A DNA stretch of 64,000 bases from Urechis unicinctus (taxonomy: Eukaryota; Annelida; Polychaeta; Xenopneusta; Urechidae), in NCBI GenBank assembly GCA_034190875.2, contig CM067355.1, positions 37,063,960 to 37,127,959 on the forward strand. The letters run 5' to 3'. Every line of letters begins with the position of its first letter. Position 1 is the first letter of the stretch. The notes beneath the pieces are model-generated. The model did no database searches and was not told the DNA's origin. It saw nothing but the letters and a program-made list of their open reading frames with translations. Positions 2,666 to 62,432 of the stretch are shown here, piece by piece. Position numbers and translations under genes: made by a program.

Positions 2666-5025
<2,360 letters not shown>

Positions 5026-5123: not shown

Positions 5124-8100
5124 ATAAGAAGGGAAAGGGGCAATACCACGCTAACTCGCCTTGTCGTGGCTCCCAAACTCAATAGAATGATTCGCCGATG
5201 AATTTCGTTATCTCTTGATTTTCACATTACACGGTTTTGGTGAATTGATGGGCTGTGGGGTCTTATATATGGTAACAGCGATGTCCATATTATGAACTTA
5301 CCCTATCTTGTCTCATAAAGAGAGAGGAGCATTATTGACTAATAGATCACTGTGTAAACAACATTCATGGCGTTTACTGCAAGAATTAATGGACAGCGCA
5401 CTCGTCGGTATAGACATATTCTGTATCTGTGCTTCTTCCGTAAACAAAAAACATTAATGGCTCAAGAGACGACGACAGACGATGCTTGAATTCTATGCAA
5501 GCAACTTTTGCAGACACATCTGCCAAGTTTTGCGAATACATATTGAACAGCTGACAAGGAAATGGCGTTTTGTGTGTGGATCTTCCGTTGTCTTCTCAAG
5601 AGAAGTGGGCGAAATGTTGTTTATTGCAGTTGGTAATCCGACGAAATGGCGGGCTTGAAAGTTGTTGCTGCCGCCCATATTTGCATACGGCCCACACGCA
5701 ACTGTGATCAACATTTGATAAAAGCGATGAAGTGTTGTGGCAAATTATCAGGTAATAAATAGAGAGGTAAACTTGCAGGACATATATATATATCATATAT
5801 TCCAATCTCTCAATCACTGCCTCTTGTGCCAATCTTATCGTTACTCCACCCTCATTGATTGCAAGTGACTGTTGAGATCACTTATGTTACAATAATTGTT
5901 CTAAAGCTGAATTATCATGTGATGGTCAACATTAGTGTATAAAATGGGGGAACATCCGAGATGCGGTCGATAATCAATGAGGATATCAAAAGGAATGCCG
6001 GTACTGGATTTTGAGGCGCTCTAGTTTAACACCCTAGTTCCTCATCTGGTTCATTAGCTATTTGGTTACATGCCGCAATTGTAACAGTTTGCATATTGTC
6101 AGTCATCCGGTGTCCCTGGCCTTCCCTCGAGCGTTTTTATCAGCTTTATGCTAACCACATGGGTGGTTATTAGTTGTGTGACAATTGCAATGATCTAGGA
6201 CAATGAAAGATTATTACAAAGTGCAAGTAAGACTAATCAAACACCGCAGACACGCCAGACTTGATGCCGTTGATATGAACTCCCCGTGTCCTTTCGGGCT
6301 GCAACGTTAACATGCAACATGTGTACTGCCATAGTCACTTTTCTAGAAAACGCCATCTGTATGACCAAGCGCTGAATACGCTAAGTTAAATACAATGCTT
6401 CTAGTTAGTTCGAATGTTACACACAAGTTCCACGTACGTCATGTCCATTGTACACACACGTCCTATACGATGATATTATCAACACCCTTCTGTCAATCGT
6501 GATATATCCAGTTAAGGCATGACAGATCATACATCAACGAGCACAGGTGTGCCAGGTATGGCAATACACGCGAATATCTAACTACAACTACTTTCATCTC
6601 ATCGTTTGGTCGCACAAATGATGTTTCCTGGAATATGGATTATGGCAGTACGCGTGTTACATGATAAATCAGCGGCCTTCATCTAGGACAAAGCGAGTAA
6701 TTACAAATAGTATCAAGTCTGGTGTGTTTGCTGTGCAACGTTTTAAAATATTCTGGTAGCGTCTGAAGGTTATTGATGGCTGCAATCTCCTGTCAATAGC
6801 TACGCACGTTGAATTATAATGTTTGCATACAACGAGTTGTGTAATCCAATGCTGCCACAAACAAGCGAGGGATTATATCCGCCGCGTGCTTAACTAGCAC
6901 ATGTATTCGTTTCAGGTATTTTATGAGCATAGTATGACAGTCAACAAAGATGTTTCGCTATCTTGAAAAGAATATTTGCTTTGAGTGAATCTCAGTGAAT
7001 TCTAATACTCATAGACAGCCAGCTATTGTGATGAGTACTACAATGTAAGTTTTCGAATGTTTGATACCAAGCCAGCTGCTTAAGCAATTATCAACCAACG
7101 GTGGCATTATCATACTCGTGCTTGTTCGTGAGGAGGGGAAGGGCTATACTGCACGCGTCGCCGGGTCATAACATAAAACTCATTAAACGCTGACCGGTCA
7201 ATCAGGAAGGAGTGGGAGCGCATGAGGGTGTGTTGGACTGGGAAATGGGATGTTTGGTGGCAGGTTTGGGTGAGGTTAGGTTGTTAGCAGGCATCGGTTT
7301 TGTGTAGTTGTCACGTGTATTGCTATCCCCATATACTTCACTACAGCATAAATTAATAACTTTTGGGCGAGTTATTTGCTTATCGTTAATATGGGATAAC
7401 ATCAACACTTATGTTACTTTTCCGCGCTTTTGATATTCATGAATTTCAAAAACGATGTATCCAAACTCTTCAGGAAGTGAGGGACTGGGTTAAAAAAATG
7501 GCAAGAGGTGGAGTGAGCTTTTGTTCAGACCTAAAGTGGTGCTTTTGAACATCATAGAGGAGATAGGGCACCTCAATAGACAGCTCATAAATGCAAAGCA
7601 GAAAACTGTACTGGTTTTGATTATAACCAACTGAAGTTTGACGAACTAGGTTAATTAACACTTGTTACAAGAAATTGGCACTTCAGTACTACTTAATATT
7701 GAAATTCTCGGTTCTCTTATGATCTATTTTCATTATTTCAATGGTTTCATTATTTGTTTCCGTTCCCCTCAGATTGTTCAAATAAAGCCAATCGAAATAT
7801 AGTTGTAATTGTTAACTCCATTTTAATACACATCTGGTCAGTGTTTAAGTCTGTGTTGAGTATTTGTCCTATTTTGATTAGTCCAAAGCATTGTATACAG
7901 TCATCTAAGTGAAAAATTAGTTCAAACGTCGGCATCCAAATATAGATAATTTTGTCGAAGTGGCGTGTTATTCAATAACTTACTTACGATTACTAGCATG
8001 CTGAATGGTAAGTGATGATGTCAGAGAGAGCGAGAGCAGTTTTACATACATCGACATCAACCTAAGTATGTTTACAACTTTAGACGGTGTAAGCCAACAT

Positions 8101-8705: not shown

Positions 8706-9898
8706 ATCATTTTATGAGCCATAATTTTTATTATCTTCTAAAGAGGAATTACAAATCATTGTAATCAATAGACATGCAATTAAAGGTTTTGTCTAAAAGG
8801 TTAATACTGTTAGCAATTCGTATTACATTTTACAGTGACCCCCACATACCTGTATATGTCAGTTGTACAAGCAATTATGTTGATTGCTTATCTTAACAGG
8901 ATTAACAAAGCATTAAACCATTCTTGTTTTCAGCAGAATATCATGCACTTAGTGAACATATGTAGAGATGTATTACAGTTGCGTGCTGTTTTCCTTGGGA
9001 TCAATGCTTATTGGGCGAATGGTTGGGGTGTTTTCAGATCCCATATGTGAGGTTTTTTCAACAAACCTACTTCAAAAACCTACACTACGTAGTAAGGAAC
9101 TACCTATAAGCTAATTAACATCTCCCTTGGGGACTGTTTTATTTCTCAAAGGGATGTTATCCTCAGTATCCACCTGGGTTGTTTTCGCCTCTAGATTAGA
9201 ACATATTTCTCCATTGCTGGTAATTATTGCCTTTGAAATTTTAGGATATAGCATGATACAACTTTAGACTGAGCAATATAAACATGATACTAAAAAGTAG
9301 ATAGTGATTTGGGAGAGTGTTCTATCGTTAACCGACATAGGACTGGTGCATGGGGAATCAACGATAATTAGTGAGTTTGAAGCGTTTGAACAAGACATAC
9401 AAAAGCACGACATACATTCACAATGATCATTCAATTAACGTCACTATGCAGGCAGCTTTCAGCTCGGACATATATGTGTGCCGACAAAAAACGAACTTCT
9501 CGCAGTACCATCATTGAATAATGATAACGAAATCTCTGAACGAATATTTCATTTACTCCTGTTTAAGTTGCTTCCTCTGCACAATCCCAACTGCAGCCTT
9601 TGCTATGTCAACTGACATAACTGATCATGAAATTTACTAATTGCATTGTTACTCATCTGCTGCCTTGGACGTTAGATTTATAAATTGAAACAACCCTCAC
9701 CTGATTACGATCCTTCATATTGCATAAAACATGTACACAGCACTTCTTTTGCATGGTACAATGTAAGTTACTGTGCCTGGGGTGGTAAATGGAGTGGAGA
9801 GATGGGGGAGTTTGTGCATGCGCACCGTAAGTAAGCTTTCAAATATCTACTTGCATTGGCAATGGCATAAATTAATACATCATGTCGTACGAGGTTTT
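8706..9898. other. Non-genic stretch
   Basis: No recognisable gene. The one 71-codon frame at 8835-9050 has no family resemblance. Confidence 0.45.
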
Positions 9899-11620: not shown

Positions 11621-11747
11621 GAGCGAAGGCACTCGAGTTCGGACATCATGATTTCCCTACACTAGCATTATGATATATGAATCATATACAATAATGCTAG
11701 TGTAGAGAAATCATGATGTTCGAACTCGAGTGTCTGTTCCCCCGAGC
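11616..11747. mobile_element. Foldback MITE-like element with 9-bp target-site duplication
   Basis: Arms of about 42 bp (from CACTCGAGTTCGGACATCAT at 11630, and its near-complement ending GTTCGAACTCGAGTG at 11732) flank a loop of about 20 bp. The 114-bp hairpin is bracketed by CCCCCGAGC at 11616-11624 and again at 11739-11747. That direct repeat has the form of a 9-bp target-site duplication, the length generated by Mutator-like transposons. The two arms differ at only a couple of positions, so the insertion is fairly young. Confidence 0.8.
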
Positions 11748-17319: not shown

Positions 17320-19428
17320 AATGATGATGATGATGATGATGATTGTTTGTTAAGCCCATTCCATCGGCATCTCCACAGGCTGTACATCGAGTATGTGAAT
17401 AAATAGATATAATAATTTATATGATGCATAAAGATAAAAGTTTAAAGCAATAGGGCTAATTTCGGACTATATCGATTGAATAAATAAAATAGCACAAAAC
17501 GTTTCCTGAAGATGTGCGTCTTTAGAGATCTTTTGAAGCTCTCAAACACGCTTATATCCCGGATATGTTCCGGTAACTCGGTCCGTAGCTAGGGGGGGCG
17601 GCGTAGCATAGTGAACGCTCATCGTAACCACGACTATACCTTCTCACCTTCCAAAGCGAAGGGGGGACTAATCGCACTGCGGAAGGTCCGCGAAATCGAC
17701 GAGTCGGCTTCACTTCTAAAAGTCTCAGTGAGGTAGTGCGGCGCCGTACTATGGTGAATCACTTTGAAGACAATAAAAAGGATTTTAAAAATAATGCGCT
17801 GCTCAACTGGGAGCCAATGTAGTTCAATGAGAACTGGTGTCATCTCTTGACGAGACTTAAAGGACAAACTGGTGACCAGTCGTGCAGCTGAATCAATTCT
17901 TATTTTCTGATCTGATAATTAGGAATGTCGAAAAACAAACTGTTATAATAATCTAGCCGGGAACTAATGAATGCATGTACTAATTTCTCCATTGTAGATT
18001 GGTCCAAAAGATGCCTAATTTTGCCGATTCTCCACAGAGCGCACAACGCAGCGCTACACACACTAGATATATGTTCGGTCATTGAGCCGGAATTGTCTAT
18101 CACTACTCCAGGTTGCGAGCAGACTGTGATGGAGAAATAGTGACGTCACCCACCCACACGTCAGTCACCGGTGCTTAGAAGTGAACCAGAGAAGTTCCGT
18201 CTTACTGTCATTGAGATCAAGCATATTGTAACACATCCATAGACGGATCTGGTCCAGACAGGCCTCAATGGAAGGAACGCCAGAATAGTCAGACCGGGAT
18301 CGGCAAGTAACGTACAGTTGGGTGTCGTCGGCGGATATAACAGTATGGCCATGGGCCGAAATAATATCTTCAAGTGGTGATATGTATAGGGAAAACAGAA
18401 CTGGTCCAAGTACGGACCCCTGAGGGAATTGAATTCCAATGACTGTGGCTCTTCTGACACCATTTATCCGATAGTCACCTTTTAAGTACGCCCGCGAAGG
18501 AAAGAATCCACCCGCTCAAATACCGACCCAGAAATGCCTAACCGCGTACGTAGCCTGTTCATCAGTATATCGTGATCAATGGTGTCAAAAGCAGCTGAAA
18601 AGTGAGCATAATGAGGATTTTATCCCTCTGGTCATCGAGAGCAATTATGACATCGTTGTGCACTCTAAGGAGTGCAATCTCAGAGCCATGTCCCTCCCGA
18701 TAAGCAGATTGGAATTTGCCATACAGTGAATTGGTAGTCAATTACTCATTCAATTGCACGAATGCGCATTTCTCCAACATTTTGTCCAGAACACTACAAT
18801 TGGAAACGGGTCTGTAGTTCTTTAGCTCATTCCTGTCCAAGCTAGGTTTCTTGATCAGAGGACAGACCATTGCCTCCTTACACATTGCAGGGAATATACC
18901 AGAGGCAAAAGAGCCATTTATAATTCCCGCCAGAACCGGGGCTACAGAATCCATACACTCCTTCACTAGCTCAGTTGGAACCGGATCCAAAGAGCAGGAC
19001 TTATTCGGCATCGCTTGTACCACTTTGATAGTTTCCTCAACTGATACCAGTGCAAAGTTCGTTAGCTGACATGACGGTGCATCCGTGGTCTCTTGTAAGA
19101 TTTGGCCCCTGCCAATCCTCTCACGAATGTCCATTCGTTTGGCTGGAGAACGAGGCCAACCTATCAGTAAGGTATTGAGACTTTGCATCATCCAGGAGGT
19201 TGACATACGCGTCGCGTGTGCGCTTGAAAATCTGTCTATCCAACTCAAGACTGGATGGCTGCCACTTTCTCTCTAGTCCGCGTAGGGACCGTCGCTCATC
19301 CATAATTGCCTTGGTGAACCACGCGTGTCTTTCATGGCGCATGTTTGTCTATAGCATTCTGTAGGACCGAGGTGTAAGAATGACACAGCTTATTCCCATC
19401 CGACGGTACAATAGTAGCGAGCAAGGCA
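17320..19428 (-). pseudogene. LINE retrotransposon (CR1/L2/Rex1-like clade), reverse transcriptase half, degraded
   Basis: Read on the - strand, this is the 3' part of a LINE ORF2. In order from 19410 downward it gives the linker after the endonuclease (HAWFTKAIMDERRSLRGLER), early RT blocks (NKSCSLDPVPTELVKECM; LKNYRPVSNCSVLDKMLEK, about 19090-18760), FQSAYREGHGSEIALLRV, the motif-A region AFDTIDHDIL (about 18590), PQGSVLGPVLFSLYISPLED (about 18400), a motif-C equivalent SADDTQLY where the first residue is usually F, Y or A (about 18330), and the C-terminal SSRLDYYNSLF and LHWLPVEQRIIFKILFIVFK segments (about 17960-17790). Frames change repeatedly and there are internal stops, so it is dead. 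A 3'UTR and a short (ATC)n tail (about 17342-17320) end it. It encoded the enzyme for target-primed reverse transcription. Confidence 0.92.
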
Positions 19429-19550
19429 AGTAGTATAGAGAATTGGGGTTCTGGCGCAGTTGGTGACGATACCAACAACAAGGTCTAGCAGTTGTTCCGG
19501 TGCTAGAACCAACCAATCTGTTAGACCTTGGTGTAGGTATCGTATAGACC

Positions 19551-19673
19551 ATGCAGAAGAAGGAACTGTCTGGGAGAGAAATATAAGAGATCCGGGTCCT
19601 GCGTGGAATCTCCACTGGAGACGAGATCCGCAAAAAGTATGGCATAGGCACCACCATGCTGTACAAGATATAG
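19551..19673 (+). pseudogene. Broken helix-turn-helix-like reading frame in the island
   Basis: Translation from ATG 19551 reads MQKKELSGREI, a TAA stop at 19584, then EIRVLRGISTGDEIRKKYGI and TTMLYKI up to a TAG at 19671. The pattern of a basic helix, GI.tG.eIrkkYGIg and then t.lYkI resembles recombinase or transposase DNA-binding helix-turn-helix domains. That is an inference from pattern alone. With two stops it cannot work as it stands. Confidence 0.4.
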
Positions 19674-19718
19674 GTGAATGGGGGCTAGTGGGAGGTTTTT
19701 AATGGGGGCGAGCGGGAG

Positions 19719-20108
19719 GTGCCCAATAGGGATATGTTGCAAAAGATAGAGAAAAAGCTGGAGGAGTCTGCCGGGCTGGCAGAGGGCCCGGGGCTGGGGC
19801 GGGCCACCTCTGGTGGGCCAGAGGAGGATCCTAGGCCCTCCAGGGTTGGGGATGGTGGGGGGCTCAGTCTTTATGATTTGTTCTTGGACGCCTTTGCGAC
19901 AGACGTAGAGGAGGGAATAGACTACATTCTGGAAGACGATATAGAAGAGGTTGGAACCAATTTAGGAACCATAGCAGACCTAGCGTCGTTTTCGACAAGA
20001 TTGCAAATGGCGGGATATGAAGGAGTTGCCGTATTTCTTGCATGCAAGGTCTGGAAAATCAAAAAAGAACCACATGGAAGCCGCATTGAATTTCCTATCA
20101 AAACCTGA
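19719..20108 (+). CDS. Unrecognised 129-residue acidic protein frame in the island
   Basis: The frame begins MPNRDMLQKIEKKLEESAGL, probably a short coiled coil. A Gly/Pro-rich linker follows (about residues 24-48), then an acidic stretch (DAFATDVEEGIDYILEDD, about residues 57-74) and a more hydrophobic C-terminus (GYEGVAVFLACKVWKIKK). It lies just downstream of the broken helix-turn-helix frame on the same strand and may be a continuation of the same protein, since both would belong to the island. No family is recognised. The Met start is arbitrary. Confidence 0.35.
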   Translation: MPNRDMLQKIEKKLEESAGLAEGPGLGRATSGGPEEDPRPSRVGDGGGLSLYDLFLDAFATDVEEGIDYILEDDIEEVGTNLGTIADLASFSTRLQMAGYEGVAVFLACKVWKIKKEPHGSRIEFPIKT

Positions 20109-20415
20109 ACCCCACAAGCTTATCCCAAGTCGGGACATTGCACCCAAGCCTACCCAAAGTCGGGACATTGGACCCTGGCCTACGCTAGTTGGGCGGGACC
20201 CTTTCTACATAGGATAAGAGACAGGGCAGGCAAATAAATTGCTTGGGGCAGACAACCATTGGGAGAGGCTTTGTAGAGACATATAGATCGCTTGGGGCAG
20301 ACCACCATTGGGAGAGGCTTTGTAGGCTGTATCGCTTGCTTGGTGTAGACCAATGGATAGGGCTGACCAATGTACCGCTTGCTTGGGGCAGACCAATGGA
20401 TCGCTTCTGGAGAGA
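20100..20415. repeat. Short degenerate direct repeats in the island
   Basis: AAGTCGGGACATTG recurs near 20128 and 20157. Versions of GCTTGGGGCAGACCA recur about every 50-60 bp from 20240 to 20397 (near 20240, 20290, 20337 with a variant, and 20380). Confidence 0.75.
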
Positions 20416-20700
20416 TGGTTCAGGGCTTGGCTGGCGGGTTGGGTGGCAGTCCTGGATGAGGTTGGTTAGCGGCTGGTTGGCAGCTTGGCCGGCAGTCCTG
20501 GAGGAGTTTGGCTAGCGGGTTGGTTCGCAGTGGATTTGCGGCTTGGCTGGCGCTCCTGGAGGAGGTGGTTTGTGGCTTGGCTGTCGGCTTGCTTTCTGGT
20601 TGGCTGGCAGTTGGCTGGCGGTTTGGCTTGTGGGTGGTTTGCGGGTTTGCTGGTAGTGGGTTGGAGGCTTTGGAGGAGGCTGGTTTGAGATTGGTCTCGA
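20416..20700. repeat. G/T-rich degenerate tandem repeat in the island
   Basis: Variants of GGCTTGGCTGGC, GGTTGG and TCCTGGAGGAG alternate over 285 bp with an irregular period. Frames across it on both strands (Trp/Leu/Gly-rich on +, Pro/Gln/Thr-rich on -) are repeat artefacts. Confidence 0.85.
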
Positions 20701-20813
20701 GGGCTCACTAGGCTGGATGGCGGAAAAAAGTAGCTGAAAAAAGGGTTGCAGAAATTTGCGGCCTTGTATATGGAGTAGGTTATAGTCTTGCTTTTTTCTT
20801 TCTTTGCCCTCTG

Positions 20814-22067
20814 CTACCATCTATTTGGTGGCATGACCAGTTCTGTCTCTCTATCGTATTTTTTGGTCGTGGTTGGCGAGAGGCCATTTCCTTTTGTTCC
20901 TATATCCTGTGCCACAAACAATCCTTTCCTCTTTTGCCAGTGCAGCCTTCCTGCCAGACCCGGGTTGCAATTGTATAGCATATACACCATATAAAACATC
21001 GGTTGTCTTTGTTCTCTATATTCAAAATTGCTTGTTGTGGAGTAGTTTCTATTGCCGTTTGATAGTTGTGTAGTCTTGTTTATCGCGTGGTGGTGCGGGT
21101 TCTTCCCGTTCGTAGTTGAGTGTATGTACGATGCAGCGATCGCTTTTGCAACAGTGGTCGAAGGCACTTCATTTTCTGAAGGGATCTGTGGTGCCAAAGA
21201 GTATGGTCTGTATGGCTGGAAAAGGCTTTCGCTCTTTTTCGTCGTAGGATTTCTGCAGTCCTGGTGTCGTTCGACTTCTGGTATATCATTCTCTGGTAGG
21301 GGTAGGATGCCACACATCCGGCCTGTCCTGTTGTTTGTCATGTACCTCCTAAGGTGGTGGTGGAAAATCAGTTGGTACAGCTCGCGGACCTGGCGGGGAA
21401 AATCGAAAAGGTGCACTACGGTGGTACCTCGGATGGAAGCAAGAACATCACACTCTTCCTTGTACAGAAACAAATAGGGTGTGTATTTGTGGGCCTGGTC
21501 GTAGAATGCTTGGTCTACCATGTCATCACGGAGCACTTTTTCGATCTCGTCTGTGCGGATTTTGGCAAAGGTTTCTTTGCCTTTGCGGTAGGTCTTTTGG
21601 GCTTCTCTTTCTCCAATATTGCCGGCTTGGATGCCTTCCACTAGGGTGTCGGAAGGCTCCCGGTTGTGTGCAAAGTACTTCTTGCCTTGTGGCGTCGGGG
21701 TGTACGTCTCTTCTATGTGGTATATTTTCCTGGCCTCGCGAACCCCTAGTGAATCAGAAACTATCTCGTGGTAGGCTTTTGGTGGTAGTACTATTTTGCC
21801 AGGCATCGTGCATACTGGTGTGTCCCTTTTGTTCAATTGTTTGTCTGCAATAGGCTTGGAGTACACGTTCGATGGGGTGCGTGTTTGAGGGTTGGGTGGT
21901 CGGGTTCGTTGGCTTGTGTTGGCGAGAAGTCCTGTGGTGGGTTGTAGACCTAGGTTGGAGCGGCTGGTTCGTGGACAAACATGTGTACAAGAATGTATAC
22001 TGGTCCATGAATGCATAGCACGAGCTGCCTTTCCTTGTATGCTTGCGCGTGTGTGTGTGTACAACAT
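20814..22067 (-). CDS. Unrecognised 417-codon reading frame in the GC-rich island
   Basis: This is the longest uninterrupted non-repeat frame in the window. The first 87 codons are low-complexity and basic. An internal Met (position 88, base 21806) followed by PGKIVLPPKAYHEIVSDSLG is a plausible alternative start giving about 330 residues. Residues 88-250 look globular and charged (REARKIYHIEETYTPTPQGK; DEIEKVLRDDMVDQAFYDQA; HLFDFPRQVRELYQLIFHHH). The remainder is Asn/Thr/Ser-rich. I see no signal peptide, transmembrane helix or zinc finger. It probably belongs to the inserted element rather than the host, because its composition matches the island and it lies wholly between the inverted repeats. 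Its function is unknown and it could be a chance frame in GC-rich DNA. Confidence 0.4.
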   Translation of the reverse strand: MLYTHTRASIQGKAARAMHSWTSIHSCTHVCPRTSRSNLGLQPTTGLLANTSQRTRPPNPQTRTPSNVYSKPIADKQLNKRDTPVCTMPGKIVLPPKAYHEIVSDSLGVREARKIYHIEETYTPTPQGKKYFAHNREPSDTLVEGIQAGNIGEREAQKTYRKGKETFAKIRTDEIEKVLRDDMVDQAFYDQAHKYTPYLFLYKEECDVLASIRGTTVVHLFDFPRQVRELYQLIFHHHLRRYMTNNRTGRMCGILPLPENDIPEVERHQDCRNPTTKKSESLFQPYRPYSLAPQIPSENEVPSTTVAKAIAASYIHSTTNGKNPHHHAINKTTQLSNGNRNYSTTSNFEYREQRQPMFYMVYMLYNCNPGLAGRLHWQKRKGLFVAQDIGTKGNGLSPTTTKKYDRETELVMPPNRW

Positions 22068-22346
22068 GGCTCTTTTCCTGCATCGATTTCTATATGTGCG
22101 TCTAGAAATGGGGGATTCCCTGTGGCTTTGGGGATTCGCCTGTTGGCTGGCTGGTGCTGTATATATGTTTGTGGCAGGCGGTGGTATGCATGTGTGGTGC
22201 TGCTGCGCCCGGAGGACGTTGGGGATTCCCTGTTGTCTATACAGTTGGTGGGCCTGTACAAAGCGCAGATGGGGATAAGGCCTCTTCTAGGGTGTGTGTC
22301 TGGAACCGTCCCCCGCTGCGCCAGAACCCCCAGTCTCTATACTACT

Positions 22347-23215
22347 AGGCGAGACCTTCTGTAATCGTATCCTTGAACGCAGACTTGTCCATACTACGGA
22401 TCGGGTGACTTGGTGACCTGTTTTGGGAGGATGACGATGAATGGACGACACAAAATCAATTGCAGCGTGATCCGATGGTAATGTCCAGTCCAAGGCAAAG
22501 TTAGTGAGCCAAGAATCAGATGTTCTCGTCAGGTTGAGGTCCAACGTGTGACCACGCACATGAGTGGGGCCCTTGACGTGTTGTTCTAATCCGAGCGACT
22601 TTACAAGATCCAAGAACCGAAGCGCGTCATTATCATTAGGATCGTCGATATGAATATTGATATCACCAGTGTCCGGGTGCTAATAGAGCATGTTAAAGCA
22701 ATGATGAGAATTCAGATAGGAAATGCATAATTGTGAATTTATGTTGGACGGAATAGGGTGGCCTGCATATGACTAGAAGATGCATGATCGTAGCTCCACA
22801 CTGTGAATATTTACATCCATCATCTCGCAGGACTGGAACGTGCCCACCTTGTTTTTAGAAACTCTCAGTCATAGAAGTGAGATTCAACCTACTTTCCTCC
22901 TATTCTTAGGAACATGGTGAGGCGTATATCCACTGAGAGTGGCAGAAAAATCCTCATCTGTTTTGGGCACCATTTTTATTGTTAATCCAACTCTCAGTGA
23001 CGATAAAAAAATATCCGTCCGCTTTTCTGAGATAGAAGCACACAGGGAACTCATTATATTTGTCATTGATCTCGCATTCCAAATGGTCATATTTACAAAG
23101 GATTTCAAAACGTAGCACAAAGTACATTTCACAACAGTCCGAGTCGCTGGACGTTCACGGTGGTCGATTGTCACAGCCCCTGCTGGAGTGACTCTTTTGT
23201 GTCGATCTGTTGTGT
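22347..23215 (-). pseudogene. Same LINE, endonuclease half, degraded
   Basis: The - strand shows remains of an APE-type endonuclease: MTIWNARSMTNI near 23090 (the N-terminal 'WNARS' block), DEDFSATLSGYTPHHVPKNR near 22930, then SLGLEQHVKGPTHVRGHTLD and the following LDLNLTR and SDHAAI blocks near 22595-22460, which are typical of the C-terminal part of this domain in Jockey/CR1-type LINEs. Several frame changes separate them. The reading then stops at 22347, where a GC-rich island has been inserted. It resumes at 19428 (LATIVPSDGNKLCHSYTSVL), so the two halves were once continuous. Confidence 0.88.
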
Positions 23216-26327: not shown

Positions 26328-27752
26328 ATGAAGACGCGAATCAACTTTTTTCGTCTGGTCGCATATTGGATCATGCTTTCAGTGTTTGCTTATTTTCTGA
26401 TCCATCGGAACGGATTGGCTAGCAGGATGCCTGAAAGTGAAAATCAAAAGGAAAACTCCATCACGACCACGAACTCTCCGACAACTGCCCATCAATCTGC
26501 AATCCATACGTTGCCTGAGCAGGTTGAATCTTTGGGATGCCCGTTCGATTGGCCCAGCCAACACATTGATGCATCGGGATTCAGGATGCTGAACGAGGAG
26601 AGTTACGTCTACTCAGCATTTTATGACAATCGTTTCAGCCCTGCCGTTATACGAGTGGTAGGTCTTTCGGATAACGTGACCCGATATTCGCCACCTTTAT
26701 GTGTCGTTTGGTACAGTAAGACCGATTGTGATGTGCTGCGCGCGACTATAAAGAGAGTGGAGATGCGCAATAACCTGAAGTAAGTTAGTTCATGATACTT
26801 AAATCAATCATATGTTAAAATTCACTGCTTGCGATTCTTACTTGAATTCATGTTGTCTCAGGAACCCGTCCTCGATCTATTTATGTCCAACACAACGAGA
26901 AGACACTCCTTCTCATATATCGCTGGCCGATGGTATGCGTTCGCGAATGGAGGCTACACTTCCAGTACGCAATACAGCGCCGCATGATGGAGCCAAATTC
27001 AATTTTATTGTCTGCATACATAAGGCCTTCTACGGATGCTATCCATCATCAAGGCTTCTTGTGGAATTTATTGAAGTATACCGAATGCTCGGGGCGGACA
27101 AGATTATTCTTTATAATGCTACCAGTAGCTGTGGCTTGAAGTCTGTGATGGCACGGTACGCGAATGATAGAGGTATTGAGCTTCACCAATGGAGACTTCC
27201 AGTGCACGTTTAAAACGCATGCTTTCGCACAGCCAGCTCTCATCAATGATTGCATTTATAGGTATATGCACGCAACTAGATATCTGGCCTTAGTAAATGT
27301 AGATGAATTCATGATACCTAGAAAACACAACAATTTGATTGACTTGCTCGACCAAGGGCATTGTAATGGTGCTGGAGAACAGCTCTTCCAGAATGCCATA
27401 TTTTCTCTTCATAGTCCAATAAGTACTCAGCTGGTAAACAATAAGACACTGGCGCGGCTACAATCTGTTGCGTTAGGATATACGACACGTTCAGAAGTGT
27501 GGGGGATCAGATGCCCGGGCTAAATGCGTCGTGCAGCCACAACAAGTGATAGCTAGTCAGATCCATGGCAGCAGCACCCTCATGTTCGGCTCTAACAGCT
27601 GTGTCGTTCCAAGCCATGAGGGTCTAAGTCATCATTACTCGATGCGGTCGCTGGACCCCCGAAATTCTACTGTCGATAACATCATTGGCAAATTTAAGGA
27701 TAGCATAGTTGATCGTTTGAATAAGGCAATTTCTGCGGATTTTGAAGAATGA
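26328..27752 (+). pseudogene. GT92 (DUF23) family glycosyltransferase, copy A, two frameshifts
   Basis: Exon 1 is 26328-26779 (donor GTAAGT at 26780) and exon 2 is 26862-27752 (acceptor TCTCAG). The 82-bp intron interrupts a Lys codon. I chose ATG 26328 because copy B starts at the same place. Residues about 8-26 are a hydrophobic signal anchor (FRLVAYWIMLSVFAYFLIH), giving the type II Golgi topology usual for this family. GT92 landmarks follow: ESYVYSAFYDNRFSP, CVVWYSK, FNFIVCIHKAFYGCYP, LVEFIEVYRMLGADKIILYN, and LALVNVDEFMIPRK, where a D-x-D-type site is usual but Asn stands first. A one-base insertion in the T run at 27209-27211, and an extra A at 27506 relative to copy B, break the frame. 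Allowing for both, the length would be about 446 residues. Known animal members transfer galactose to glycans. The substrate here is unknown. Confidence 0.88.
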
Positions 27753-47515: not shown

Positions 47516-48636
47516 TGATCGAGCCATCAGAGAATATATGCCCTCCATTTAAATGTATACTACATCAATCCATCAGAGAATATATGCCCTCCATTATACT
47601 ACATCAATCCATCAGCGAATATATGCCCTCCATTTAAATATATACTACATCAATCCATCAGAGAATATATGCCCTCCATTTAAATATATACTACATCAAT
47701 CTATCAGCGAATATATGCCCTCCATTTAAATATATACTACATCAATCCATCAGAGAATATATGCCCTCCATTTACATATATACTACATCAATCCATCAGA
47801 GAATATATGCCCTCCATTTAAATATATACTACATCAATCCATCAGAGAATATATGCCCTCCATTTAAATATATACTACATCAATCCATCAGAGAATATAT
47901 GCCCTCCATTTAAATATATACTACATCAATCCATCAGAGAATATATGCCCTCCATTTAAATATATACTACATCAATCCATCAGAGAATATATGCCCTCCA
48001 TTTAAATATATACTACATCAATCCATCAGAGAATCGAGCTATCAGAGAATATATGCCCTCCATTTAAATATATACTACATCAATCCATCAGAGAATATAT
48101 GCCCTCCATTATACTACATCAATCCATCAGAGAATATATGCCCTCCATTTACATATATACTACATCAATCCATCAGAGAATATATGCCCTCCATTTAAAT
48201 ATATACTACATCAATCCATCAGAGAATATATGCCCTCCATTTAAATATATACTACATCAATCCATCAGAGAATATATGCCCTCCATTTAAATATATACTA
48301 CATCAATCCATCAGAGAATATATGCCCTCCATTATACTACATCAATCCATCAGAGAATATATGCCCTCCATTTAAATATATACTACATCAATCCATCAGA
48401 GAATATATGCCCTCCATTTAAATATATACTACATCAATCCATCAGAGAATATATGCCCTCCATTTAAATATATACTACATCAATCCATCAGAGAATCGAG
48501 CTATCAGAGAATATATGCCCTCCATTTAAATATATACTACATCAATCCATCAGAGAATATATGCCCTCCATTATACTACATCAATCCATCAGAGAATATA
48601 TGCCCTCCATTTAAATATATACTACATCAATCCATA
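47516..48636. repeat. Minisatellite, 46-bp unit with higher-order structure
   Basis: About 25 copies of a unit that starts CATCAATCCATCAGAGAATA and ends ATATACTA. Most units are 46 bp. Some are 39 bp because TTAAATATA is shortened at the join to TATACTA. The junction block CGAGC(T/C)ATCAGAGAAT starts three sub-arrays, at about 47520, 48035 and 48496, each followed by one full unit and then one 39-bp unit. That is the mark of higher-order amplification. Substitutions between units are few. Confidence 0.96.
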
Positions 48637-49075
48637 ATACTTGTAGCCAAATATAATTAACCAATCAAGACGTATTCTCAATAGTTAGAAATAAGCATAT
48701 TCATTGTTTGTTCTTGTTGGACAACACCTTATTGTTAGAGAGGAAATTATTCATCTTGAGTTACAGAATGCATCATGTAACATCTCTTTATATTGAAATA
48801 AATACATTCCATCATCATCTGAAAATATCCGTCAATTGTTTCCGCCATACATGACGTACTTTTCACCAACTAACTTAATGGGAAAGCACTAGCCTGGCCG
48901 TTTATTTCCATTTTGACGACATCACAATGGCTCAATAGCACAAACATCGTCGGTGCTTGGTTAACTGCTCCCGTGCTGTATGCCTTACGCTAAATAAATT
49001 AAGCATTGACACCGACCATCATTTAGACACTATGTATCTCTATAAAAATAGACTAATCAACCACCATAGCAGATT
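48637..49075. other. Non-genic stretch
   Basis: No supportable gene between minisatellites. Confidence 0.45.
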
Positions 49076-49602: not shown

Positions 49603-50487
49603 GTTTGCGGGATTGACGAGCTGATGCAAGCAGTTGGTGAAGCGCTGATATTGCTTGTTTTGCGGGATTGACGAGCTGATGCAAGCGGTTGGTGAAGCGC
49701 TGATATTGCTTGGTTTGCGGGATTGACGAGCTGATGCAAGCGGTTGGTGAAGCGCTGATATTGCTTGGTTTGCGGGATTGACGAGCTGATGCAAGCAGTT
49801 GGTGAAGCGCTGATATTGCTTGGTTTGCGGGATTGACGAGCTGATGCAAGCAGTTGGTGAAGCGCTGATATTGCTTGGTTTGCGGGATTGACGAGCTGAT
49901 GCAAGCAGTTGGTGAAGCGCTGATATTGCTTGTTTTGCGGGATTGACGAGCTGATGCAAGCGGTTGGTGAAGCGCTGATATTGCTTGGTTTGCGGGATTG
50001 ACGAGCTGATGCAAGCAGTTGGTGAAGCGCTGATATTGCTTGGTTTGCGGGATTGACGAGCTGATGCAAGCAGTTGGTGAAGCGCTGATATTGCTTGGTT
50101 TGCGGGATTGACGAGCTGATGCAAGCAGTTGGTGAAGCGCTGATATTGCTTGGTTTGCGGGATTGACGAGCTGATGCAAGCAGTTGGTGAAGCGCTGATA
50201 TTGCTTGGTTTGCGGGATTGACGAGCTGATGCAAGCAGTTGGTGAAGCGCTGATATTGCTTGGTTTGCGGGATTGACGAGCTGATGCAAGCAGTTGGTGA
50301 TGCGCTGATATTGCTTGGTTTGCGGGATTGACGAGCTGATGCAAGCGGTTGGTGATGCGCTGATATTGCTTGGTTTGCGGGATTGACGAGCTGATGCAAG
50401 CGGTTGGTGAAGCGCTGATATTGCTTGGTTTGCGGAATTGACGATCTGATGCAAGCGGTTGGTGAAGCGCTGATATTGCTTGGTTTG
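49603..50487. repeat. Minisatellite, 55-bp unit, about 16 copies
   Basis: The unit starts TTTGCGGGATTGACGAGCTG and ends GCTGATATTGCTTGG. Copies are nearly identical, with variation mainly at CAAGC(A/G)GTTGG, TGA(A/T)GCGC and TTG(G/T)TTTG. Since 55 is not a multiple of 3 and the unit lacks - strand stops in any phase, all three - strand frames stay open (305, 254 and 353 codons). The translated repeat is 55 residues long (for example SNISASPTACISSSIPQTKQ). Protein coding is not supported by anything outside the array. Confidence 0.97.
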
Positions 50488-56454: not shown

Positions 56455-57868
56455 TTATTCTCCAGAATCAAAGGAATAGGCTTTTGTTAAACGGTCGGTT
56501 ATGATATCTTTATATTTGCCAATGATAACATCAACAGTCGAATTCTTGGGGTTCAATGGTCGCTTGCAGTAATGATGGCTTAGAGCTTCAGTGCTTGGGA
56601 TGACGCAGCTCTTCGAATCGCCAATCAGCTTGCTCCCGCCATGGATCTGCCCACTTAGCACACGGTGTGGCTGCACGACACATTTAGCACGGGCCGATGA
56701 CCCCCACACTTCTGAACGTGTTATGTATCCTAACACTGTGGACTGTAGCCTCGTGAGGGTCTCATTGTTCACCAGCTGAGTACTTATTGGGCTATTTAGA
56801 GAAAATACGGCATTTTGGAGCAGGTGCTCTCCGGCACCTTTACAATAACCTTGGTCGAGCAAGTCTACCAATGTATGGTGTTTTCTTGGTATCATGAATT
56901 CGTCAATATTTACTAATGCCAGATATCTTGTGCTAAACATACACCTATAAATGCATTCACTAACGAGCGCCGTCTGCGCAAAAGCGTGGGTTTTAACGTG
57001 AGCTGGAAGTCTCCATTGGTGAAGCTCGAGGATGTTATCCCTCGAATAGTGCGCCATCACTGTCTCCAAGCCACAGCTACTGCTAGCATTATAGAGTATA
57101 AACTTATCTGCTCCCAGCATTCGGTATACTTCAATAAATTCCACCAGAAGTCTTGATGGTGGATAGCATCCATGAATTGCCTCATGAATGCAGACCGTGA
57201 GGTTGTGTTTTGGCCCGTCAAACTGCAGAGTGTTTCGCACTTTGAGGGTAGTCTCCAAGCTAGAACCCATACTGAAGACCAGTGATATGTGGGATGGAGC
57301 TTCTTCTTGCTGGGTTTGACATACAAAGATAGATGACGGATTCCTGAAACAATAGATATCAGAGGCAAACACCACAATCTGAAAAATGCACCCATACAGT
57401 CATATGAACTGTAAAGAATTTACTTACTTTAGATTATTGCGCGCCTCCACCTTCACGATGGATGCTCGTACCACATCACATATGGTCTGACTGTACCATA
57501 CGACGCACAAAAGGCGGTGAATGTCGAGTTGCGCTACCCGAAATACCGAAAACTCGTATATAGCCTGGGCTGAACCGATTGTCAAAATAAGCTGAATACA
57601 CATAACTTTCATTGTTTAGCATCACAAATCCGGGTGCATCTATGTGATGACTTGGCCATTCAAATCGGCAACGGGATGGTTCAACTTGACCACGCAGTGC
57701 GTGTATTGTGGTGTCCGGGGAGTTAGTGGCCAGGCTGATGTTCTCTTGCCGATAATCACGATTAAAGATTGAAATCAGCCATCTTTTGTGATTGATTGCA
57801 ACATACGCTAGTACCGAAAGTGATACCCAATATGACACGAAACGCGAAAAAGCGATTCTCGTATTCAT
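56455..57868 (-). pseudogene. GT92 (DUF23) family glycosyltransferase, copy B, one frameshift in exon 1
   Basis: Exon 1 is 57868-57428 and exon 2 is 57343-56455, with an 84-bp intron (GTAAGT...TTTCAG) at the same Lys codon as copy A. The start MNTRIAFSRFVSYWVSLSVL is a type II signal anchor. The body matches copy A throughout: ESYVYSAYFDNRFSP, CVVWYSQ, LTVCIHEAIHGCYP, LVEFIEVYRMLGADKFILYN, LALVNIDEFMIPRK and LSHHYCKRPLNPKNSTVD. Exon 2 is fully open. One extra base in the T4 run at 57509-57512 (after SPP, before LCVVWY) shifts exon 1. Without it the protein would be about 442 residues, close to the family's usual size. It could be a functional gene with a single sequencing error, or a recent pseudogene. 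As in copy A, the expected first Asp of the D-x-D-like site is Asn. Likely role: Golgi glycan modification, acceptor unknown. Confidence 0.85.
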
Positions 57869-59519: not shown

Positions 59520-61053
59520 TCTGCATATTGTCCCGCTGAAATTATTTGTAGAATCATTATACAAGCAAGAGGACACAAACAACATGGATCTTTGTGTTTT
59601 GAATATATACTCAACATATATCTGTTCGAAATACCGACAGCCGCGAGTGCCAAATGCATGAATTATTCAAATTAACAGTTGAATACAAGTTCCTCCAATA
59701 TTTGACTAGCAATTATACCTATTAGCCTTTATGTTCGGTGTTAACATTCTGTAACGCAGGACAAAAACTGATTCCAGCCCTTTGTAAAGAATTCGATTTG
59801 AATATGATTGATAATTATTTTTAAAACACCCTAAACAGCATTTTGGTAATGTTATTGTATTAAGTACTGATTTCATAGAAGTGTGCACTACTGGTTGTTA
59901 GACTGACATACATTGACCAATAACAGCTAAACACAGTCCAGGCCACAAAGCAACGTGTACGTGTACATTAAACTTGTTTATTGGTAATGCCAACGCAGCA
60001 CAATAGCACTAATGATGTACTTGACGTCATTAGACTGCTTCCCGGCAGGGGTTAGTGAACCGTGTGTTTTGGCTGTGGACATTATGGTTCAAAATATAAA
60101 ATGAAAATCGCATAGCATCTCTGCCCCTAAAGTTTGTATATATGTGCCTTATCAATTATTGAAAGGATGGTTATATTAGATTTACCCTTCCCACATTCAG
60201 CTCCAGCTTGCAATTTCGGTAGCACTTTAAGTCTTAGCGGTTGACCCGCAATGAACAGTGAAGATATTGTTGAAAATAAAAATGTACTTTCGTTATTAAT
60301 AGAGTCAATGTAGCAAGACACTGCTCGAGTAAAATCTGTGTACAGAATTGCTTTGAATGGTTCGTTGCACGTCGCATATGTAATTGGGTCCAAGGGAAAG
60401 GCAGCAATAAGTGCTGAAACTTGTTTCTGCCTGATTATATGATTATATGACTCAGTTGATGATCAATGATCTGACGACCTACAAATAAACAGGATATATT
60501 TGGTTCGCCGAATTGTCCATTATTTTATTTAGAACATTACTCTCTGCTGAGCCAAGTATATGTGAACTAGGCTGCACTACGTTCTGACGGCCTAGTTAGC
60601 ACTGAATGTTAATAACGTGTTGATTATGAATCAAGGAAAAGTTTAAGCAAAGCAAGCAAAACTCATCTTGCTACTCGCCAGCTATTTTGTCAGAGAGGGA
60701 ATCGGTTCTAACTAACGCCACGGTCCCATGAGATTCACGGGCTCTCTATGGGCTGTCAAAAGGCCTCTCATGGACCATGTGAGCCTGCAGGGTTTGTCGC
60801 GCTGCTGAGTGTGGGGCCTGGAATATATACAATACTTGGTTTAATACTCGAGCCACATTTTGAGCAAAATGCGGAACCGCAGTCTTTTTCCCATATCATC
60901 TCAAACGCACAGTTTGCCATGCGATAACTGCAACCGTGTCGATATATCACCGAGAAACAACTTCACTTGAGATGGTCCCTCACAGAGCACCGCTGCTCTG
61001 GCATGGCAGCACTACGGAGGTTCTTAATATCACGCACACTTTACATGTCTTAA

Positions 61054-62060
61054 AGAGGCTGTTCAGCCTCATATAAGGCAATCAGGGATCATTTGGTAAA
61101 TACATTACTACGCTCGATGCGGTTACGAAATAATGCCGTCGTTTATTTGGTGCGTCAAATTTTACTTCATCCAAAATTATGCTGGTAATTTTTAAACATA
61201 TTTGTTTCACTGGAAATCCAAAAGATGTACAGTAGAAGGCTATATCATTTAGCTGTGTCAGTCCATCGATAACGATACCTCCCTAAAACCATCAGCCGCT
61301 CGTTTGTCGGCTGTAAATCACTACGCGCGTCTTATAACTACCTCGCTACGGATGTGTATATCTCCGCTCAAGTTTCAAAATGTAGTTTTCTTCAAATCAA
61401 GGTTGTGGGCAACACCAACACGATAAATAGTAACTTTTGTCCCACCATATGGTACCTTTTATCATACAATGGAATTAAGCACACTGTATTCGTCATCATC
61501 TAACACCGAAAAATTTTCCGCCGACGCTCGCTGGAGATTGAAACTGAAACCTCACTATCGTCCGTCCGTAAACACAACTCAGCTGCGATTTGTATGAAGT
61601 TTTCATTGAAGGGAGGTCCGATCACCGTTAGCCCTGCCGATCAAAATGGATCCAAAACGTTTGCCACATTAATAAATCCGGCGTTCGAAGCGTCGAGCGT
61701 TCCATATTGTACTCGGGAGGTACTCAATGAACCATTGCCCATTCAGTCTGCATGGGCTGCAGATTACGAGAGACTTGAGACCCCAAGCGGTTCCACTTCC
61801 ACAACCCATTTACCCGTTGCGGTGATATTGGAGGGACTGGCCAGTGGAGGTAAAGTGCTACAAGAGATACCCCCTCGCAAGAGTAATTTCTCACAACAAC
61901 AACAAAACTGCAGACGGCGGGAGTCAGGATCTACTTGCAAAGACCGCAGCGCCGCGTAGCGAGGGAAAGTCTGAAAATGTAACATTTTTGGTTTCCAAGG
62001 TGCTGTTACCAAGCAGCTTGCTAGGCAACCACTTTCCTTATATGGGGCTGAACAGTCTCT
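61054..62060. mobile_element. 1,007-bp DNA transposon or MITE with TTAA target duplication
   Basis: The left end reads AGAGGCTGTTCAGCCTCATA. The right end, read inward, is AGAGACTGTTCAGCCCCATA. The terminal inverted repeat is about 25 bp with two mismatches. TTAA flanks both sides (61050-61053 and 62061-62064), the target duplication of piggyBac, Kolobok and a few other superfamilies. The element sits inside the right arm of the inverted duplication and is missing from the left, so it inserted after duplication or was lost there. No transposase is recognised, so it is non-autonomous. Confidence 0.88.
61594..61959 (+). other. 121-codon unrecognised reading frame inside the TTAA element
   Basis: It starts MKFSLKGGPITVSPADQNGS and ends in a Gln/Arg/Ser-rich segment. 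Composition is protein-like (balanced, few rare residues) over residues 1-90. It could be a captured exon or the remnant of a transposase 5' exon. I recognise no family. Confidence 0.3.
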
Positions 62061-62432
62061 TTAAAACGAAGGTTTTCTCAAGAGTCATTTGCTTGCCAGC
62101 CGCTAATGTGGTTGCGTAGCGCTCATCGGGACGTCACGGTATTATCCCATCTCCCCGGAATCATGCTGAGGCACGAAAATGTAACACCTGCCGAGCCGTG
62201 TCTACTGCGCTTCAGTGTTGCTAGTATCAAACAATGAAGCATATTCTAATAAAAAAACAAGTATAGAAAAAAAAGTATGTATCTAATCATCACTTAAACG
62301 CAGGCAGCTGAGACCGAATGGTGGATTAAGATCTACCCCTCTCATTAACAGGTCACAGGAAGATACCTTACATAACATAGGTTCACGCTAATTATCATTA
62401 TTAGGAGACAGCGCCGTGCTTGATTATCGCGT

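Follow-up and report, generated by a model that had tools for sequence, protein, structure and literature searches.

A 2.9-kb insertion in a LINE of Urechis unicinctus is probably an internally deleted derivative of a Polinton/Maverick-like element

What kind of mobile element interrupts a CR1-like long interspersed nuclear element (LINE) in the genome of the annelid Urechis unicinctus? The DNA that we analyzed, here called the window, is a stretch of 64,000 nucleotides (C14:37063960-37127959) of this 1.19-Gb genome, and the element in question is a 2918-bp insertion at positions 19429-22346; element positions are window coordinates unless stated otherwise. An earlier note, made from the letters alone, had left the insertion in an unknown class and had suggested that it may have arisen by deletion from a larger virus-like or transposon-like element. 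The first of these statements is not right, because its ends, its target duplication and its relatives place the element with Polintons/Mavericks, and the second is probably right. We put at roughly 90% the probability that the insertion is non-autonomous and derives from a Polinton/Maverick-like parent by internal deletion. Its ends and target duplication are shared with a 15-kb pair of ends in the same genome that encloses a match to the polymerase PolB (one such pair was examined), and its left part, containing a gene that we call gene A, precedes PolB at one locus (L039) and is joined to PolB pieces at another (L030). The window element is not an autonomous Polinton, because neither polymerase nor integrase turned up in its scanned frames and its duplication is 5 bp.

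The borders of the insertion, and the LINE on either side of it, are as follows.

18742..19423, minus strand: downstream portion of the interrupted CR1-like LINE frame (junction frame)
19424..19428, no strand: target duplication on the left, AGGCA, which agrees with the one on the right at 4/5 positions
19429..19459, plus strand: left terminal inverted repeat, starting with AGTAGTATAGAGA, the (AGT)2 end motif; 29/31 (genome pattern search)
22316..22346, minus strand: right terminal inverted repeat, ending in ...TCTCTATACTACT, complementary to the left one at 29/31 positions
22347..22351, no strand: right copy of the target duplication, AGGCG, with one mismatch to AGGCA
22352..22679, minus strand: upstream portion of the interrupted CR1-like LINE frame, on the endonuclease side (Pfam, junction frame)

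When the flanks are joined without the element and 5 bp, a stop-free LINE frame runs over the junction, reading ...KSAFKDTITEGLA on one side and LLATIVPSDG... on the other, and this frame is also compatible with an offset of 2, which is the same modulo 3 as 5 bp. The interrupted LINE is itself old and frameshifted, and the endonuclease match in its upstream part is weak (Exo_endo_phos_2, E 0.014, under the Pfam cut-off). The earlier note had described an element with inverted ends inserted in a LINE, a possible 4-5-bp target duplication and a base composition unlike that of the host; each of these is borne out, the duplication being 5 bp with one mismatch and the GC content 51% in the element against 39% elsewhere in the window. 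A weaker likeness between the inverted ends extends to 63 nt at 76%. Across the window, inverted 31-bp pairs less than 6 kb apart gave 2134 antidiagonals with at least 27/31 matches, or 32 after masking of two-letter low complexity, and among the best 20 of these 32, only two pairs beyond the element ends and outside AT/AG repeats score 28-29/31. These two, at 11630-11732 and 61047-62067, possibly mark two more small transposon-like elements. A tRNA-like left end of the element, considered from the sequence, was dropped; ARAGORN and Rfam reported nothing in the window.

The ends (AGT)2...(ACT)2 have the 5'-AG...CT-3' form with short tandem repeats that characterizes Polintons/Mavericks. Among vertebrate Mavericks, (AGT)2//(ACT)2 is the most frequent end motif, and it is attributed to a jumping-back step in protein-primed replication (PMC8097293, which we cite, like the other papers below, from an excerpt). 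Throughout the genome, the pattern AGTAGTATAGRKANNNNNGGTTC is matched 1160 times (589 forward, 571 reverse), and the backwards control has no match in either direction. On C1, convergent pairing of 74 end matches at distances below 25 kb yields 17 pairs, which measure from 172 bp to 18.7 kb and include one pair of unlike subtypes; among the short ones, three are 244-255 bp and one is 172 bp long. Exact 5-bp duplications flank six of the seven end pairs examined, and the window copy retains 4/5 positions. Two other lines of search on the ends were set aside: a match to the end pattern in a viral contig was judged from its surroundings to be chance, and occurrences of the element's end sequence in the literature were, going by their titles, unrelated.

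The ends are not always simple. At L031:7370-9295, a short element of 1.9 kb has AGTAGTATAGGTAATAGC ends and an AGTTG duplication, and each of its end units, about 250 bp in length, is in turn an inverted pair of the AGTAGTATAG motif (L031:7370-7625 and 9046-9295). Similar end units, known from their coordinates only, lie at C1:58200979-58201222 and 58216874-58217128, where they bound about 16 kb. By analogy with L031, some of the short C1 pairs may be end units of larger elements rather than separate elements, and such nested ends might allow an end unit to move or replicate alone.

Short ends, a size of 3 kb and a 5-bp duplication are also compatible with a DNA transposon that moves by cut-and-paste, belongs to another or unknown superfamily (a Ginger-like one, for example) and resembles Polintons at its ends only. 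We regard this as very unlikely. Ginger1 has TGTNR ends with 4-bp CCGG/CCGT duplications and animal Ginger2 has 4-bp duplications (PMC2836005), and the ends and flanks of our element show neither TGTNR nor CCGG/CCGT; moreover, the (AGT)2...(ACT)2 ends also bound the 15-kb element with a PolB match. Integrase-related transposition and the 5-bp duplication of TDD-4/5 are points of likeness to the Ginger2/TDD group (PMC2836005); by contrast, no Ginger transposase was found in the element and its end motif is unlike that of Ginger1.

Between its ends the element has, from left to right, a hairpin, plus-strand gene A, two tandem-repeat blocks and minus-strand gene B, as follows.

19466..19543, plus strand: subterminal near-perfect hairpin (inverted-repeat and folding analysis)
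19548..20108, plus strand: gene A, a helix-turn-helix-like protein, broken here by one TAA and two TAG
20115..20720, no strand: tandem-repeat blocks with units of 30, 49, 43 and about 46-58 bp, which other copies have in expanded or rearranged form
20903..21252, minus strand: probable C part of gene B, in two pieces whose frames differ from the 417-aa frame discussed below, ending in ...NIENKDNRCFIWC...
21345..21806, minus strand: N part of gene B, the conserved piece of the 417-aa frame (copy alignment, codon bias)

The link to a polymerase-bearing parent comes from several loci. The 15,165-bp pair C1:533716-548880 has perfect TGTCA duplications and encloses a PolB match above the Pfam cut-off. 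The two ends of this pair agree with each other at all 32 bases shown, and they match each window end at 25/31 positions. At L039, a stretch like element positions 54-680 (76%, with gene A) lies directly upstream of a PolB N-terminal sequence (82% aa to L033, residues 113-330), after which a DNA_pol_B_2 domain follows (E 5.9e-12); a AGTAGTATAG end stands about 500 bp ahead of the element-like stretch (965 vs 1462). At L030, gene A is joined to pieces with 81-92% identity (BLAST) to PolB frames at L033 and L035, and at L037, PolB-type frames adjoin an rve integrase (E 2.7e-8; 34.4 bits, just over the Pfam cut-off of 32.6). The short element L031:7370-9295 resembles ours in its AGTAGTATAG ends and 5-bp duplication and carries inside a piece 45% identical to a Polinton PolB N-terminus (E 2e-20); it differs in its end subtype, GTAATAGC, and in its inverted-pair end units. 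Genome-wide, PolB (PF03175) gave 91 scored matches from 630 candidates, compared to none in 14 control genomes. Of the PF03175 matches listed, the best, L034:2063-5080 (C17:6586562-6589579), is a 1006-codon open frame that unites AEP_C962R primase, PriCT_2 and DNA_pol_B_2 in one protein, and is a virus-like gene distinct from Polinton PolB; AEP_C962R refers to C962R of African swine fever virus.

The earlier note had proposed looking for further copies with the same ends and determining the duplication length from their flanks. Such copies exist, and the length is 5 bp. A DNA search of the genome with the element returned at least 157 matches (927 candidates, 40 scored), and 20 of these match sites (L010-L029) were fetched. 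Both ends together with a perfect 5-bp duplication are found in L019 (TGTGT), L025 (CTGTC), L027 (ATTCT) and L029 (ACTGG), the last of which was added by eye, its left end having missed the automatic threshold; L016, with a poor second end and AACGC/AATGC read by eye, was excluded from this count. In L010, element positions 65-2286 align in a single alignment at 78%, so the short arrangement is older than this insertion, and the 2899-bp element C1:36023400-36026298 has both ends and contains a match to element positions 1460-2286.

These copies bear on the idea that a full-length Polinton entered the LINE and then shrank in place by deletion, leaving a short form that is immobile. Many copies are truncated on the left, and at L030 a Polinton piece is joined differently to gene A, as such decay would have it. 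Against this, the internal order recurs at L010 and C1:36023400-36026298, and the short elements L019, L025, L027 and L029 each possess their own perfect duplication; deletion in place, on this evidence already unlikely, would require different internal breakpoints at every locus. Most likely, therefore, the short form propagated as a unit and did not originate through deletion in this LINE, and we consider shrinkage in place highly improbable.

The hairpin region (19463-19546) folds with a z of -8.2, and none of 200 shuffles is equally stable, compared to an unexceptional z of -0.8 for the element's right end. This region is enlarged by short repeats in L010 (around 6100-6300) and is swapped for long AT and TATC repeats in L012 (around 3900-4400). 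The left ends of copies may have been lost at the hairpin.

Gene A is the broken helix-turn-helix-like frame of the earlier note, which is confirmed on the plus strand with three stops; by eye, its predicted product has one helix-turn-helix-like stretch. A protein search found at least 155 matches to it genome-wide (150 scored of 1034 candidates). Counting by hand among the matches listed, we found 34 with at most 60% identity that span at least 170 residues, and nine of these 34, with identities of 44-56%, have no stop. Matches also lie inside end pairs of other subtypes: in C1:36559857-36561950 (2.1 kb), at 50% identity with one stop; in C2:18927986-18931214 (3.2 kb) with no stop; and in C2:8895634-8901976 (6.3 kb), the two C2 pairs having been read by eye. 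Gene A, then, is not just a relic in the window copy. A scan of viral contigs, sensitive to close relatives only, found no relatives of a gene A piece.

Gene B concerns the 417-codon frame of the earlier note, which is indeed open and unusually long and is probably not one gene. The minus-strand open stretch that holds it runs for 490 codons from stop to stop, and among 1000 dinucleotide shuffles of the element none reaches 489 codons, the longest being 255. Codon-position bias is significant solely in codons 200-300 of this stretch (2 of 10 windows, p 0.013-0.017). The gene B frame common to the copies matches the 417-aa frame only as far as 21345 and then departs from it, which suggests why the bias is so confined, and the 417-codon frame is probably only in part the true gene B frame. 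Beyond this point, the window probably holds the C part in two pieces, 21252-21025 and 21031-20903, the first containing stops; the corresponding frame is open in eight fetched copies (L010, L011, L012, L013, L017, L019, L028 and L029). This choice of frame is tentative: the later part of the 417-aa frame is likewise open in L019, and by the ratio of nonsynonymous to synonymous substitution rates (dN/dS) the C part does not stand out as coding. With stop codons left out of the calculation where a copy contains them, as L012 and L018 do, dN/dS is 0.28-0.96 for the N part (10 pairs, 5 copies), with values of 0.75-0.96 in the four comparisons that involve the window copy, and 0.49-1.42 for the C part (15 pairs, 6 copies). 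The gene B pieces thus appear mostly to decay near neutrality, and the window copy is old and dead.

The N part of gene B has, by eye, two similar helix-turn-helix-like stretches in its predicted product. The frames of genes A and B gave nothing above threshold in PHROGs, NCBIfam or Pfam, and sub-threshold matches were to Arfaptin, PP-binding_2, NPV_P10 and two PHROGs of unknown function. Scans of viral contigs and prokaryote genomes, which reach close relatives only, returned no relatives of the 417-aa frame or the N part; the 417-aa frame matched nothing among phages or plasmids, and its three hits in the PDB by sequence have E of 0.7 and worse. A structure prediction for the N part was discarded with a mean predicted local distance difference test score (pLDDT) of 35.

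With two tail-to-tail genes, whose frames are common to copies, and with gene A matches in shorter end pairs of several subtypes, the element could be pictured as a small, self-sufficient virus-like entity whose genes are its own replication functions and whose kinship with Polintons extends to the ends only. We hold this to be extremely improbable: no enzymatic domain was found in gene A or gene B, and gene A also neighbors PolB on its upstream side.

Several observations weigh against derivation from a Polinton. In the frames of the window that were scanned, Pfam gave no polymerase, integrase, capsid, ATPase or protease match. Just four of the 20 fetched close copies possess both ends and a perfect duplication, the remaining 16 having a right-type end only, with left parts that are truncated, rearranged or entering simple repeats. 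Among the three PolB matches listed on C1, only one lies within a listed end pair. The left end at L039 is identical to the window ends at 16-17/31 positions (ungapped) and belongs to a 44-bp inverted unit, and none of the four L030 pieces is recognized by Pfam, their PolB identity being given by BLAST to L033 and L035 only. Profile comparison found no match between the gene B N part and the PolB N-terminal region (P 0.94), and the C part matched this region weakly, over 32-33 residues (P 0.001-0.003, probability 11-22% by hhalign). Lastly, the duplication is 5 bp here compared to 6 bp in vertebrate Mavericks (PMC8097293). A 5-bp duplication is not new in itself, because duplications of 5-6 bp are recorded for mavirus and 'MPEs', which we take as Maverick/Polinton elements (PMC8547959), and for Polinton-like viruses (PMC12220804). 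A search for the PolB N-terminal motif pattern in viral contigs gave no match.

Set beside known systems, the element is closest to vertebrate Polintons/Mavericks in its (AGT)2//(ACT)2 ends and in having relatives with PolB and, at L037, an rve integrase; the 15-kb enclosing pair also falls within the published range of 12.7-24.6 kb (PMC8097293). It departs from them in its length of 2.9 kb, in an inverted repeat of 31-63 bp compared to 46-1447 bp for intact elements (PMC8097293), in the lack of a PolB or integrase match and in the presence of genes A and B, of unknown function. Its duplication falls in the 5-6-bp range of mavirus-type virophages and related endogenous elements (PMC8547959); no virophage gene turned up in the window, although no search was aimed at them.

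How would such a derivative multiply? The PolB of the parent, supplied in trans, would copy a linear form from the (AGT)2 ends by protein priming, with jumping-back on the repeated AGT, and the parent's rve-type integrase, also in trans, would join the ends to a 5-bp staggered cut. The products of genes A and B would bind element DNA, perhaps at the subterminal hairpin, such that the short form contributes its ends and perhaps DNA-binding proteins too. A further step, which we think doubtful, is that the short elements are coding satellites of Polintons that retained gene A (and, in the window subfamily, gene B) while dropping polymerase and integrase. Equally tentatively, their predicted DNA-binding proteins might favor the satellites' own copying or integration by the enzymes of Polintons, from a clade with 5-bp duplications. 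What bears on this proposal is the gene A-like sequence in shorter end pairs of several subtypes, of which some copies are open at about 50% identity. Should gene A truly assist these short elements, coding satellites would exist for Polintons much as virophages do for giant viruses.

Repeat libraries hold entries for non-autonomous Polintons/Mavericks. A literature search for set phrases on such elements found no paper, which does not prove that descriptions are lacking, and the excerpt of PMC6431247 mentions no non-autonomous Polinton. The 'unknown class' of the element thus gives way to a named one. Short derivatives of this kind are easily misfiled by repeat annotators that seek a transposase. 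The genome has more than 1000 exact matches to a Polinton-type end pattern, with C1 pairs that span from less than 1 kb to more than 15 kb.

Elsewhere in the window, pieces of glycosyltransferase family 92 (GT92) genes lie on opposite strands at 26803-27210 (plus) and 56458-57399 (minus), and AT-repeats are present; along with the CR1-like LINE, these features point to an animal genome. Large tandem arrays occupy 47524-48637 (46-bp units) and 49603-50487 (55-bp units), the latter with 98% matches between its copies.

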